Positions 36,022-62,610 of a DNA stretch of 64,000 nt are shown one piece after another. The DNA is taken from contig JAQZBN010000026.1 of assembly GCA_029238935.1 (NCBI GenBank), positions 1-64,000 on the forward strand, written 5' to 3'. Below the pieces are notes generated by a model, which was not told the DNA's origin, made no database searches, and saw only the letters and a list, made by a program, of their open reading frames with translations. Both the position numbers and the translations under genes were made by a program. How positions within the stretch are numbered: the first letter of the stretch is position 1; each line of letters begins with the position of its first letter. Origin of the DNA: Herbinix sp. Its GTDB lineage: Bacteria; Bacillota; Clostridia; Lachnospirales; Lachnospiraceae.

Positions 36022-37686
36022 ATGAACGAGACAGTAAAGGTAGAGATCAATGGTAAAGTGACTGAATACCCTGTAGGCACTTCTCTATTAACCATCAGCA
36101 GGGAATACCAGAATGAATTTAAGAATGATATTATACTGGCATTTGTTAATAACAAGCTGAGAGAACTATTTAAAACGGTTGAGAAGGATTGTACCATACG
36201 TTTTGTTACCACCGCAGAGGATGCCGGACATAAGACCTATATGCGTGGTCTGGTATTAGTGATGTTAAAAGCAATCTATGCTGAGTTTGGATCGGAAAAT
36301 GTCGATAAAGTTTTAGTGGAATATGCGATAGGAAACGGTCTCTATTGTGAACTTCAGGGAAAAGAAAAAGTAACCGTAAGCAGATTGAATGCAGTGAAAC
36401 GAAGAATGCAGGAAATGATTGATCGTAATACTCCGTTCTTAAAAAGAAGCATAGGAACTGATGAAGCAATTGAATTATTTCGTCAATATCGAATGTTTGA
36501 TAAGGAAAAGTTGTTTCGATATCGTAGAGTTTCAAAAGCCAATATCTATAATTTGGATGGCTTTGAAGATTACTATTATGGGTATATGCCACCCAGTACA
36601 GGGATGTTGAAATACTTCGATTTAATCGAATATGAGGAAGGATTTATACTAGTTCACCCAGAAAAGAAGACGCCTACAGTTGTAGAACCCTTTCTACCGC
36701 AGAAGAAACTCTTTTATACAATGAAAGAGGCAAACCAATGGGGTCGAATGATGGAAATTGACACAGTAGGAGCTTTAAATGATGTGATAGCAAAAGGCAA
36801 AATCAATGATCTGATTCTCGTTCAGGAGGCAATGCAAGAAAAGAAGATAGGAGAAATTGCTGAAGACATAAAAAAGGCTGGTGGAAAGAAATTTATAATG
36901 ATTGCTGGGCCCTCCTCTTCCGGCAAGACTACATTTTCTCATAGACTCTCAATTCAATTAAGAACTTTGGGGTTAAAACCCCATCCTATCGCTGTAGACG
37001 ATTATTTTGTAAACAGAGAAAAGACGCCTAGGGACGAACATGGCAACTTTAATTTTGAAAGTTTGCATGCAATAGACCTTGAGCAATTTAATGAAGATAT
37101 GACAAATTTACTTCATGGTAAAACAGTGGAATTACCTGGTTTTAATTTTAAAACCGGAGTTCGGGAATACAAAGGCAATGACCTTAAGCTAGGACCAGAA
37201 GATATCTTGGTCATTGAAGGTATCCATGGATTAAATGATGCACTTTCTTACTCGCTGTCAAGAGATAGTAAATATAAGATTTATATTAGTGCACTCACTC
37301 AATTAAATGTTGACGAACATAATCGAATACCCACTACTGACGGTAGATTAATTCGCAGAATGGTTCGGGATGCAAGAACAAGAGGAGCTTCCGCTCAGAA
37401 AACAATTTCTATGTGGCCTTCAGTTAGAAAAGGTGAGGAAGAAAATATTTTTCCGTTTCAAGAGGATGCAGATACGATGTTTAATTCTGCATTAATATAT
37501 GAGCTTGCGATATTAAAACAATATGCAGAACCGATTTTGTTTGGAATTGAACGAAATTGTGAAGAGTATGTAGAGGCGAAAAGATTATTGAAATTTTTAG
37601 ATTATTTTATTGGAACCCCCAGTGAAGCAGTTCCAACAAACTCAATTTTAAAAGAGTTTGTAGGAGGTAGCTGTTTCAAGGTATGA
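36022..37686 (+). CDS. Nucleoside (uridine) kinase with N-terminal TGS/ThrRS-like domains
   Basis: The 554-residue protein combines an N-terminal TGS domain (VKVEINGKVTEYPVGTSLL), a segment resembling the threonyl-tRNA synthetase second additional domain, and a C-terminal P-loop kinase domain of the uridine/phosphoribulokinase group (IAGPSSSGKTTFSHRL, P-loop at about 296-303; HPIAVDDYFVNREKTP). It has no synthetase catalytic core. This architecture is widespread in Clostridia as a nucleoside kinase, but the role of the N-terminus is unknown. It starts 15 bp after trmK; its stop codon overlaps the 3' end of rnpB on the other strand. Confidence 0.88.
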   Translation: MNETVKVEINGKVTEYPVGTSLLTISREYQNEFKNDIILAFVNNKLRELFKTVEKDCTIRFVTTAEDAGHKTYMRGLVLVMLKAIYAEFGSENVDKVLVEYAIGNGLYCELQGKEKVTVSRLNAVKRRMQEMIDRNTPFLKRSIGTDEAIELFRQYRMFDKEKLFRYRRVSKANIYNLDGFEDYYYGYMPPSTGMLKYFDLIEYEEGFILVHPEKKTPTVVEPFLPQKKLFYTMKEANQWGRMMEIDTVGALNDVIAKGKINDLILVQEAMQEKKIGEIAEDIKKAGGKKFIMIAGPSSSGKTTFSHRLSIQLRTLGLKPHPIAVDDYFVNREKTPRDEHGNFNFESLHAIDLEQFNEDMTNLLHGKTVELPGFNFKTGVREYKGNDLKLGPEDILVIEGIHGLNDALSYSLSRDSKYKIYISALTQLNVDEHNRIPTTDGRLIRRMVRDARTRGASAQKTISMWPSVRKGEEENIFPFQEDADTMFNSALIYELAILKQYAEPILFGIERNCEEYVEAKRLLKFLDYFIGTPSEAVPTNSILKEFVGGSCFKV

Positions 37687-38049
37687 GCAGCACGATAAGC
37701 CGGGTTCTGTCTTGAATGGTCATCTATCTTGGTTACATGTTACCATGCAACTCAAGTATCCGCTTTCGCAAATACTACGCGACCTACCCTGAAGCACGGC
37801 GGGCTACCGTATCGCTCCATGTTCGGTCTTGCTTCGGGTGGGGTTTACATCTGCCCCTTCTGTTACCAGAAGGGCGGTGGTCTCTTAAGCCACCTTTCCA
37901 TCCTTACCAAAATATCAAAATACTCTGGCGGTATCATCTCTGTTGCACTAGCCTTGGAGTTGCCTCCACCGGACGTTATCCGGCACCCTGCCCTATGAAG
38001 CCCGGACTTTCCTCATCTTATAAAAAGACGCGACCATCTGTACTACTCA
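37685..38049 (-). ncRNA. rnpB: RNase P RNA (class A)
   Basis: RNase P RNA is the catalytic RNA that matures tRNA 5' ends. On the - strand the RNA contains the conserved GAGGAAAGTCCGGGCT block near the 5' end, a GGTGCCGG/CCGGTGGAGG region, and the conserved 3' end ACAGAACCCGGCTTAT. The outermost helix P1 can be closed: GAGTAGTAC at 38048-38040 pairs fully, with G-U pairs, with GTGCTGCTC at 37693-37685. The length, about 365 nt, fits bacterial RNase P RNA. The track ORFs at 37716 and 37729 are shadows of it. Its 3' end overlaps the TGA of the convergent kinase gene by 2 bp. Confidence 0.96.
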
Positions 38050-38149: not shown

Positions 38150-38400
38150 ATGCGGTTATAGCCATAAATACTAGGTTTTTGCTATAAATGCTAGTTATGA
38201 GATATTGATATTAGTTTCTAGTATAGATTCTAGTTTTAAGATATTAATTTTAGTTTAAGATATTGATTCTATTTTTTGGGTATGAGGTTTTAACACTGGT
38301 TCTTAATATTATTTCTAGTTTTAAATATTACTTCTAATTTTAAATAAGCTTATTTAAGTAATTAAACTAATTTCACGATATTAATGCTAATATCGGGTTC
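38150..38400. repeat. Degenerate AT-rich tandem repeat region
   Basis: Repeated versions of a TAGTTTTAAGATATTGATTCT-like unit (about 20-25 bp) in imperfect tandem, within a 570-bp gene-free gap between rnpB and the response regulator. Units are too diverged for exact boundaries. No coding potential is seen. Confidence 0.5.
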
Positions 38401-49929: not shown

Positions 49930-52161
49930 TTATATTTTTGTATGAAAGGTTCTTGATATTACTTCATCCTTCTGTTTTTCGCTTAAGGAATTAAAACGAA
50001 CAGCATATCCTGATACACGAATCGTAAGATTGGGGTAACACTCCGGATGAGCCTTAGCATCTTCAAGTAAACTGCGATCAAGCACATTAACGTTAATGTG
50101 ATGAGCATTATGATCAAAATAGCTATCTATCATAGCAGTTAAGTTCTTTATTTGATCAACTGACGATTTTCCCAAGGTACCAGGGGTTACAGTAAATGTA
50201 CAAGAGATACCATCCTTACAATTGTCATAATTAATCTTAGCTACGGATTGTAATGAGGCTAAAGCACCTTTCTGATCTCTACCATGCATGGGATTTGCAC
50301 CAGGTGCAAAGGGCGACCCTAATTTGCGTCCATCGGGAGTGGTCCCGGTTTTCTTTCCGTAAACAATATTACTGGTAATTGTCAATATCGATAGTGTATG
50401 TATAGAGTTTCGATAGGATGGATGTTTCTTTAATCTAATTACAAATTCTTCAATGATTTCATTAGCAATTGAGTCAACTCGATTATCGTTATTGCCAAAG
50501 GCAGGATATTCGTCTTCTATCTTAAAATCAGTGATAATTCCTCTCGAATCTTTAATAGGAGTTACTTTCGCATATTTAATAGCACTTAAGGAATCGATAA
50601 CAACAGACAAACCAGCAATTCCGAAACCCATAAGTCGCTCTACATCCGTGTCATGTAGAGCCATTTGTAGTTTTTCATAGGCATATTTATCATGCATATA
50701 ATGGATCACATTCATTGTTTTTACATAGAGTTCACATAACCAATCCATATACTTTAGAAAGCTTGCTTTTACGTCATCATATTGGAGTGGTTCTCGATCA
50801 GAAAATATCTGGGACACAGGTCCGATCTGTTCATCATTTATTTCGTCTCTTCCTCCATTTAAGCTCATTAGCAGTACCTTGGCTAGATTACATCTAGCTC
50901 CAAAATATTGCATCTGTTTGCCCACCTTCATGGCGGAAACACAGCAAGCGATTGCATAATCGTCACCATAATCTGTACGCATAAGATCATCATTTTCATA
51001 TTGGAGGGAGTCAGTTTGTATTGACATCTTAGCGCAATATTCTTTGAACTTTATAGGTAAATATTTTGACCAAAGTATTGTTAAATTTGGTTCCGGTGCT
51101 GGGGATAACGTATTTAAAGTATGTATAAAACGGAAGCTGCTTTTAGTAACCATACTATGTCCACTTGTAGTAGCTCCGCCGATCGCTTCCGTAATCCAAA
51201 GAGGATCTCCGGCAAAAAGTTCGTTATAATCAGGAGTCCGTAATTGCCTAGCCATACGTAATTTTAATATAAACTGATCGATGATTTCTTGTGCAGTAGT
51301 TTCATCGATAACACCTAAACGAAGATCACGTTCAAAATAAATATCTAAAAAAGTTGAGGTACGTCCCAATGACATTGCAGCACCATTTTGCTCTTTGATG
51401 GCACCAAGGTAAGCAAAGTATAACCATTGTACGGCTTCTTTTGCGCTGCAGGCGGGACGGGAGATATCATACCCATAACTTTCAGCCATAACTTTTAGTT
51501 TTTGGAGAAAATCTATTTGACGATAGAGCTCTTCAAGAGTACGAATTGTATCTTCCTCCATAGGCTTCCTACCTAAGCTTTTCTGATCTAGTTTCTTCTG
51601 CTCTATGAGATAATCAACTCCGTATAAAGGGACACGGCGGTAATCTCCGATGATGCGTCCTCGACCATAAGCATCCGGTAAGCCAGTAATGATTCCACTT
51701 TTTCTTACTTTTTTCATTTCATCGGTGTAGACACGAAAAACGCCATCGTTATGGGTAGTACGATACCGGAAATGTTCTTCTACTTGTTCGGATAATGTGT
51801 AACCGTAGGATTCACATGCCTGCCTTGCCATTCGAATTCCTCCGAAGGGATTCACACCTCTTTTTAAAGGTGCATCAGTCTGAAAGCCCACAATTATTTC
51901 ATTGTCTTTATCCAAATATGCAGGTTCATAGGATAAGAGTGAAGAAACTTGTTCGGTATTTATGGATAAAACACCGTTCTTTTGCTCCAGTTGAATGAGC
52001 TCTTGATACTTTTCGTATAGAGTTAGGGTACGTTTTGTGGCTGAAGTAAGAAAACTTTCATCTCCATCATAAGGAGTATAATTACATAGAATAAAGTCTC
52101 TGACATTGATTTCATCCTGCCATTTTCCAAGCTTAAATTGATACCAGGGTTTCATAGTCAT
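49930..52161 (-). CDS. pflB: Formate acetyltransferase (pyruvate formate-lyase)
   Basis: PflB cleaves pyruvate with CoA to acetyl-CoA and formate using a glycyl radical. The 743-residue protein has the active-site cysteine pair at 406-407 ([13 protein letters not shown]) and the radical glycine at about 718 (RVSGYAVRF). Length matches the true PFL group. The AAAGGATT site lies about 8 bp before the ATG. The activating enzyme gene pflA is not adjacent. A ZTP riboswitch with its own promoter lies about 740 nt upstream in the same orientation, and folate-linked control is typical of that RNA class. Confidence 0.96.
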
Positions 52162-52246
52162 ATATCCAATCCTTTCTTATAATTTAGATTGTTTTATGTA
52201 CCGTAAGAAATTGTCATAATAAAATTCTTCTTCAAATTACACTACT

Positions 52247-52292
52247 GAAAATCATATCTTGATCTTAAGAAAATCATATTGTATAATCCGGA
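52247..52292. repeat. Two outlying copies of the 23-bp repeat
   Basis: GAAAATCATATCTTGATCTT followed by AAG (52247-52269), and a second, half-matching unit (AAAATCATATTG at 52270). They are the same unit as the array at 52533 but separated from it by the inverted-repeat element. Confidence 0.7.
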
Positions 52293-52532
52293 CGGGATTA
52301 CACCAGCTGTCCGGTCATAGGAAACCACGTTTTTGATAAGTACATTCTGCTTATTTTAGACTACCTGTTACTGAATAAATTATCAAGGCTGCTACGCACC
52401 GCAATATCGGCAAGGCCTTGACAATTTATTCAATAACAAGTGACAGGCAGTTAAGCAGAACTAAGTTGGTTTCCGTCTACCGGAAGACCGGTTTCCATTT
52501 TGTCGGAATCATGGTTTCCCGAGACAAGAATA
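52288..52532. mobile_element. MITE-like inverted-repeat element (no coding capacity)
   Basis: A 155-bp imperfect cruciform at 52320-52474 has nested arms: GGAAACCA/TGGTTTCC, TTCTGCTTA/TAAGCAGAA, and an 18-bp inner pair with one mismatch (52372-52389 with 52415-52432). A smaller hairpin CCGGAC/GTCCGG lies at 52288-52314, and GGTTTCC recurs to the right. It splits the 23-bp repeat tract. It could be a non-autonomous insertion or a structured RNA. No target duplication or transposase was identified. Confidence 0.5.
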
Positions 52533-52693
52533 TTCATCATATCTTGATCTTTAATAAAATCATATCTTGATCTTTAGTAAAATCATATCTTGATCTTTAT
52601 TAAAATCATATCTTGATCTTTAGTAAAATCATATTTTGATCTTTACTAAAATCATATCTAGATCTTTACTAAAATCATATCTAGATCTTGACT
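52533..52693. repeat. 23-bp tandem repeat array (7 units)
   Basis: Seven head-to-tail 23-bp units with consensus AAAATCATATCTTGATCTTT plus a three-base end (AGT, ATT or ACT); the first and last are slightly diverged and later units change CTTGAT to CTAGAT. There are no spacers, so this is not CRISPR. It lies in the long leader between the ZTP riboswitch and pflB. Confidence 0.92.
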
Positions 52694-52904
52694 TAAATCA
52701 TTCATTGATTGAGACTTTACTCTTATTTATATAGACAAATGAGTCGAAGTAATTTTATCATCTGAATGAAGCCAAATTTCTCACTGATATTTATGACAAA
52801 TACCGTGAGGAGTAGCAGGAAAATTTTGAAGAAATCATTACTAACTATACAGCAATAAAACAACCTAATGAAGTTGTTATCTCAGGCTCGGTTGTGATAG
52901 AATC

Positions 52905-53021
52905 AAAAAACCGCCTGAGCATTTGCCCAGGCGGTCGACATTCTTATTCAGCTTTCTATGTATTGGAAAGCCTTCCTATCGGTCCCTTGTGGTATTCCCA
53001 CTGATCCGCCAGTTCCGATAG
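52905..53021 (-). ncRNA. ZTP riboswitch (pfl motif) with intrinsic terminator
   Basis: This RNA senses ZTP/ZMP, a signal of low 10-formyl-tetrahydrofolate, and usually turns on folate, purine or pfl genes. On the - strand P1 is CTATCGG/CCGATAG (53021-53015 with 52982-52976), followed by the conserved ACTGGCGG, the GTGGGAATACCAC hairpin and AAGGGA. After a linker comes the 3' hallmark CGACCGCCTGGGC (52937-52925), which also forms the left arm of a terminator with GCTCAGGCGGTTTTTT. All conserved parts are present. The next gene in this direction is pflB, about 740 nt away. Confidence 0.92.
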
Positions 53022-53026
53022 TAATC

Positions 53027-53055
53027 ATTATAAAACTTACAATAAATGGTGTCAA
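53027..53055 (-). promoter_or_regulatory. Consensus promoter of the ZTP riboswitch transcript
   Basis: On the - strand: perfect TTGACA (53055-53050), 17-bp spacer, perfect TATAAT (53032-53027). Transcription would start at about 53021, exactly at riboswitch P1. Confidence 0.92.
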
Positions 53056-53060
53056 GCTGG

Positions 53061-53084
53061 AAGTGTCATTTATCCATGACACTT
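53061..53084 (-). terminator. Hairpin at the end of the ECF S-component gene
   Basis: AAGTGTCAT pairs with ATGACACTT around GGATAA and overlaps the last codons of the gene. There is no T-tract, so it may stabilise the 3' end more than terminate. Confidence 0.5.
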
Positions 53085-53575
53085 CTTATCTGAGGTACCT
53101 TTTTAAGAAGAGGTAGTAATAAGGAGGATAAAACAATACCAAAGATATTCTGTACGATGTTACCAGGCACTCCCACTACTGCAGCTGCCAGTCCATTCCC
53201 TAATAACATACTTTCAAATAGTAAATATCCTGAGGTCACGACGATTCCACCAGCAATACCAGCTAGAATAACAGAGTACTTACGAACATGACGATAAATA
53301 AGAGCACCAGTAACTGCGGCTAAGGCTTTGATTATCAATGTTGCCGGTGCATATATCGTATAGCCTAGAAAAATATCAGCAAACATAGATCCGATACCAG
53401 CTGCAAGACCTCCATAAAAAGGTCCTAAAATGATACCCGATAATAATACAAAGCCATCTCCAGGATGTATAAAACCACCGGTAGGAGAGGGAATAGGAAC
53501 AACCATGGTGGTCATACAGGTCATAGCAGCCATAAGCGCAGCTGTAACCAGTTTTATTAAGTGTTTGGATTTCAT
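53066..53575 (-). CDS. ECF transporter S component
   Basis: S components bind a vitamin or other micronutrient in the membrane and work with the shared EcfAA'T module. The 169-residue protein has about five or six hydrophobic helices and phrases typical of the riboflavin-like S-component group (FIHPGDGFVLLSGIILGPFYGG; YTIYAPATLIIKALAAVTG). The ligand cannot be assigned and no riboswitch precedes it. The AGGAGG site is 1 bp from the track ATG at 53581 and 7 bp from the ATG at 53575, so the latter is chosen. Confidence 0.88.
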   Translation of the reverse strand: MKSKHLIKLVTAALMAAMTCMTTMVVPIPSPTGGFIHPGDGFVLLSGIILGPFYGGLAAGIGSMFADIFLGYTIYAPATLIIKALAAVTGALIYRHVRKYSVILAGIAGGIVVTSGYLLFESMLLGNGLAAAVVGVPGNIVQNIFGIVLSSLLLPLLKKVPQIRSVMDK

Positions 53576-53618
53576 AGTCATGCCTCCTAAGATAATGATA
53601 TGTTATGAATTATGTGCA

Positions 53619-62322: not shown

Positions 62323-62356
62323 AAGACTACGAATTTGAGTGAAAAACAATATAACT

Positions 62357-62610
62357 TATGGTAGAGGTGCATTGCTTATCAGTAGGCAGCGGGATATGAC
62401 AGACATAGATGAACGCAGCCGAAAGGAAACAATGCCGAAGTGATAATAATTCTGTATTATTATTGCTGGTCATACGGTAAAGAACTCTATGACTGTCATC
62501 AAGAAATTGATGGAGCGCTGCCTAAAGAATGTTTTACTGTTTACAAGCATTTTTATTATATGCTATCTAGCAGATATTCTTTAGCGTCGACTCTGTAGTC
62601 GACTTTTTTT
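62357..62610 (+). ncRNA. Lysine riboswitch (L box) with terminator
   Basis: The aptamer has the conserved blocks in order: GGTAGAGGTGC (62360 region), AGTAGG, CCGAAAGG, GCCGAAG, GCTGG, ACTGTCAT, and GATGGAGCGCTGCC closing P1 (about 62524). A terminator follows: GTCGAC (62585-62590) pairs with GTCGAC (62597-62602) and is followed by a run of T. Lysine binding should favour termination and lower dapA expression. Confidence 0.95.

Follow-up and report, generated by a model that had tools for sequence, protein, structure and literature searches.

A ZTP riboswitch on the minus strand of the 64,000-nt stretch of Herbinix sp. DNA analysed here (hereafter the window) stands 744 nt away from pflB, counted from the end of its U-tract to the ATG. 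It is probable that an ordinary transcriptional ZTP ON-switch here drives pflB through an inflated leader. The stretch between switch and gene has grown about tenfold, by a simple route that is in part paralleled elsewhere. The locus is a natural experiment on the distance that can separate a transcription-terminating riboswitch from its gene, indicates that annotation of riboswitches by a fixed distance can miss true targets and, as a by-product, exposed a family of hairpin MITEs.

The riboswitch unit and its neighbours

The switch unit is preceded by a sigma-70-type promoter at 53027..53055 (minus strand, as are all features of the locus), TTGACA-N17-TATAAT, with 12 matches to the 12 consensus positions. 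The ZMP/ZTP (pfl motif) aptamer at 52918..53026 was identified by a covariance-model search of the whole window: RF01750 is matched over its full length (model positions 1-86) with 54.3 bits against a gathering cut-off of 39 bits, and an E-value of 4.7e-6. An intrinsic terminator with a 12-bp stem and a T-run is found at 52909..52936. The expression platform overlaps P3 and the pseudoknot, the strands of which are ACUGGCGG and CCGCC. Since CCGCC is contained in the 5' arm of the terminator, aptamer and terminator appear mutually exclusive; the minimum free energy fold of the window leader corresponds to the terminator state, with which the pseudoknot is predicted to be incompatible. A preceding sequence-only reading had placed a consensus promoter, a complete pfl-motif aptamer and an intrinsic terminator on this strand, with coordinates that are right within a few bases, and the covariance-model search it proposed gave the match above cut-off reported here.

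An alignment of 12 genus leaders, window included, has both promoter hexamers at the same place, near-invariant hexamers, aptamer core and terminator, and unchanged pseudoknot strands. Signs of decay are absent from promoter, aptamer and terminator of the window. The window riboswitch is a typical representative of its known family, has a classic target, pflB, and resembles the Clostridium beijerinckii pfl switch (RF01750) in aptamer, pseudoknot strands, overlapping terminator and target. As the switch looks intact, the locus is best described as a known system, unusually laid out, and not as a new one. This genome, assembled into 157 contigs with contamination estimated at 8%, yielded no further ZTP RNA.

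Upstream of the promoter lies a gene for an ECF transporter S component (53066..53581; Pfam PF07155, 98.9 bits), which precedes the ZTP RNA at each of the 13 genus loci examined, window included. The next gene 3' of the ZTP RNA, with no gene between, is pflB (49930..52161), a target of the one-carbon/purine kind. It is intact and encodes a full length pyruvate formate-lyase of 743 aa that contains the Gly_radical domain and scores 1098 bits with TIGR01255 (formate C-acetyltransferase; cut-off 994). The spacer shows no gene-like frame and none with a ribosome-binding site, the longest listed frame being 46 aa; the gene-free stretch of about 740 nt followed by pflB in the same orientation described earlier stands. 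A second pflB paralogue, 59% identical, is present in the same genome at G000:C74:124126-126342.

In the genus, 12 further species have a ZTP RNA 3' of this ECF-S gene. It is followed by pflB in 11 of these; the contig of the twelfth (G031) ends at the ZTP RNA before pflB is reached. The spacers lack homology between species and measure 23 to 405 nt across the 11 sisters, the shortest being 23, 51 and 57 nt, with spacers of 283 to 405 nt in three other species. The comparison of sister genomes that had been suggested thus returns a conserved promoter, aptamer and terminator with a spacer of variable length. In G003 the U-tract and the pflB ATG are only 23 nt apart. No promoter would fit there, which argues that in this genus the ZTP RNA controls this pflB directly. 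In most of the genus members whose genomes are smaller, the ZTP-pflB locus is missing and the other paralogue of pflB, about 62% identical, is the only one present. G005 has a second, diverged ZTP RNA (L030, 1501-1608; 47.4 bits) with a matched change in the pseudoknot strands, GACGG/CCGTC replacing GGCGG/CCGCC; downstream, a gene-poor stretch separates it from a surface-protein-like ORF.

Growth of the spacer

Distances from aptamer end to start codon were obtained for ZTP loci of the order and for the genus pflB loci, with start codons called automatically and required to have a Shine-Dalgarno-like match. Nine of the 88 order loci gave no automatic downstream ORF call, and the remaining 79 have a median distance of 73 nt and a range of 39-228 nt, except for a single outlier of 552 nt. 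The other genus pflB loci show 43, 70, 74, 104, 112, 145, 188, 206, 301, 364 and 423 nt. The window distance according to the same measure is 756 nt, the longest in this analysis, and it is this length that sets the window apart from known ZMP/ZTP riboswitches. The outlier (L251 of G387, positions 1-630) belongs to another genus and consists of a ZTP RNA and terminator that precede purH, with a spacer filled by about four near-identical, hairpin-bearing repeats. This is an independent case of leader expansion.

The window spacer contains a 23-bp tandem array of 7.6 copies at 52536..52709 (TRF score 269, 92% matches) and a 257-bp MITE-like hairpin element at 52280..52536. Array copies also occur beyond the element, at 52248..52279. 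An empty site was reconstructed by deletion of the element and one copy of the flanking duplication, with the boundary shifted by one base, upon which these copies become continuous with the main array, which lengthens from 7.6 to 8.7 copies. Since the deletion restores a single continuous array, the array predates the element. The sequences support growth of the spacer in at least two steps, first the 23-bp array and then insertion of the MITE into it. The claim that the leader was stretched by a 23-bp array and an inverted-repeat element agrees with the short sister leaders, the element ends, the duplication and the inferred empty site.

Among 34 genus genomes searched, the 23-bp unit occurs in tandem solely in that of the window. 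Sister spacers hold arrays of their own, such as 3.3 copies of 25 bp in G015 and six copies of 17 bp in G026; kinship with the window array was rejected, as the units of the other species are unrelated. The G015 unit (L022) includes a Shine-Dalgarno-like GGAGG and its array abuts the pflB start codon.

A mobile family of hairpin elements

The window element has imperfect terminal inverted repeats, TGAATATTC...GATTATACA, is flanked by ATATGA and folds with a z-score of -8.4. No listed minus-strand frame of more than 30 codons is found inside. It is present in one copy in its own genome; a further weak match, at C141, falls within a histidine-kinase-like gene and was taken as chance. Comparison with Rfam yielded just sub-threshold chance matches. 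A phage or plasmid origin was dropped, as no match was found in phages, plasmids or viral contigs, and so was a retron ncRNA as explanation of the nested hairpins, as the ORFs inspected around the copies included no recognisable reverse transcriptase.

G002 carries a truncated homologue (77% identity over 157 nt) and G334 one that is essentially gapless (68% over about 260 nt). The three-sequence alignment shows ten hairpin base pairs with compensatory changes on both sides, and a covariance model built from it identifies relatives in distant genera, G379 (146.7 bits) and G226 (93 bits), whereas 700 kb of unrelated loci gave no match above 22 bits. Weaker, multi-copy matches such as those of G360, with up to 59 bits in seven places, may be true relatives or merely similar long hairpins. 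The start TRAATAWTCTTG is common to the window element and the four strong relatives. The G334 copy measures 257 bp and has termini TGAATATTC...GGAATATTCA; the G379 copy measures 256 bp.

Because the insertion site in the window is itself repetitive, its 6-bp ATATGA duplication is ambiguous when taken alone, a point settled by the relatives, which show duplications of ATTTG (5 bp, G334) and CATTA (5 bp, G379). The G379 copy (L274, 3174-3429) splits an IS21-type transposase gene and has a clean target duplication, and in silico removal of the element and one duplication copy restores the frame ...FQRFCEHYRIKPVFMN..., which shows that the family is mobile. No autonomous transposase partner was identified beside the relatives: an IS91-type transposase and a tyrosine recombinase near the G334 copy form a separate insertion, and the recombinase beside the G002 copy is a C-terminal fragment of 85 aa.

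This is a hairpin MITE family of this order without Rfam match, and a narrow literature search found no description of it. The layout resembles that of the BrickBuilt MITE of Porphyromonas gingivalis (PMC4596501), which is likewise intergenic and combines a MITE with a 23-nt tandem array. However, BrickBuilt carries its array within the MITE and occurs as a whole in multiple copies, whereas the window has a MITE inside an array, in a single copy in the genome. By description it also resembles the bcr1-type stem-loop repeats (PMC2267715), which are short, non-coding and intergenic, have a fold that is conserved and show signs of mobility, but the window element differs by its TG...CA termini and the duplications of 5-6 bp.

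Probable control of pflB across the spacer

The sequences compared above document which parts are present, how well they are conserved, in which order the two insertions occurred and that the element family is mobile, while the ligand, the ON logic and read-through would follow by analogy with known ZTP riboswitches. RNA polymerase would start just below 53027 and transcribe the aptamer. When ZMP/ZTP is absent, the GCUCAGGCGG strand would invade P3 and pseudoknot and thereby form the terminator. Binding of ZMP/ZTP, the signal of 10-formyl-THF shortage, would block the terminator, such that polymerase could continue into pflB across some 740 nt of repeats that are not translated. Formate made by the pflB product would then feed 10-formyl-THF synthesis. 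In the C. beijerinckii pfl ZTP switch, strand displacement at the terminator makes the decision (PMC10085676). The spacer comes after this decision point, hence its length should add delay, and possibly loss of RNA, rather than abolish control. Given the strong fold of the spacer and a weak terminator-like hairpin at 52303-52281, some of the read-through RNA may indeed be lost. The sequence-only reading had considered control over such a distance, or its loss, unusual. The view that distance by itself makes control doubtful does not hold up well against a terminator that overlaps the aptamer and would decide ahead of the spacer, a conserved unit and the existence of the 283-405-nt and 552-nt cases.

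The switch might instead have been uncoupled, with pflB transcribed from a promoter of its own, borne by the repeats or the element, and the ZTP unit yielding just a short terminated RNA. The spacer is long enough for this, and the BrickBuilt MITE had promoter activity in a reporter. A promoter search on the pflB strand of the spacer, however, returned nothing good, its sole match being weak (9 of 12 positions, 52217-52188), and promoter, aptamer and terminator of the switch are free of visible decay. A non-consensus promoter may lie nearer pflB. We consider uncoupling unlikely; with no strong promoter in the spacer and the spacer past the decision point, retained control of pflB by the riboswitch is probable.

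Leaders 3' of ZTP terminators might also tolerate or recruit repeats and mobile elements, which here, as hairpin and array, would form functional leader parts kept by selection: a second layer acting on read-through pflB mRNA by way of mRNA stability or RNase III processing. The compensatory changes, the presence of the element in distant genera and the recurrence of leader expansion would fit such a role. Yet the element sits at unrelated sites, as in the IS21 gene of G379, so that mobility, rather than pflB, is the more likely reason for its conserved structure. The element is absent from the sister pflB leaders of the genus, and the array sequences vary between species, which makes selection for either in this leader quite improbable.

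That the long spacer is an artefact of a draft assembly with tandem repeats is most improbable, given a single contig with consistent flanks, an ordered insertion with target duplication and long spacers in other species too.

Two further structured RNAs were observed in the window. RNase P class A RNA (278.8 bits) lies at 37680-38049 (minus strand) and 38154-38346, adjoined by arrays of tandem repeats with units of 19-39 bp, and a lysine riboswitch aptamer (123.7 bits) is found at 62354-62528 (plus strand).
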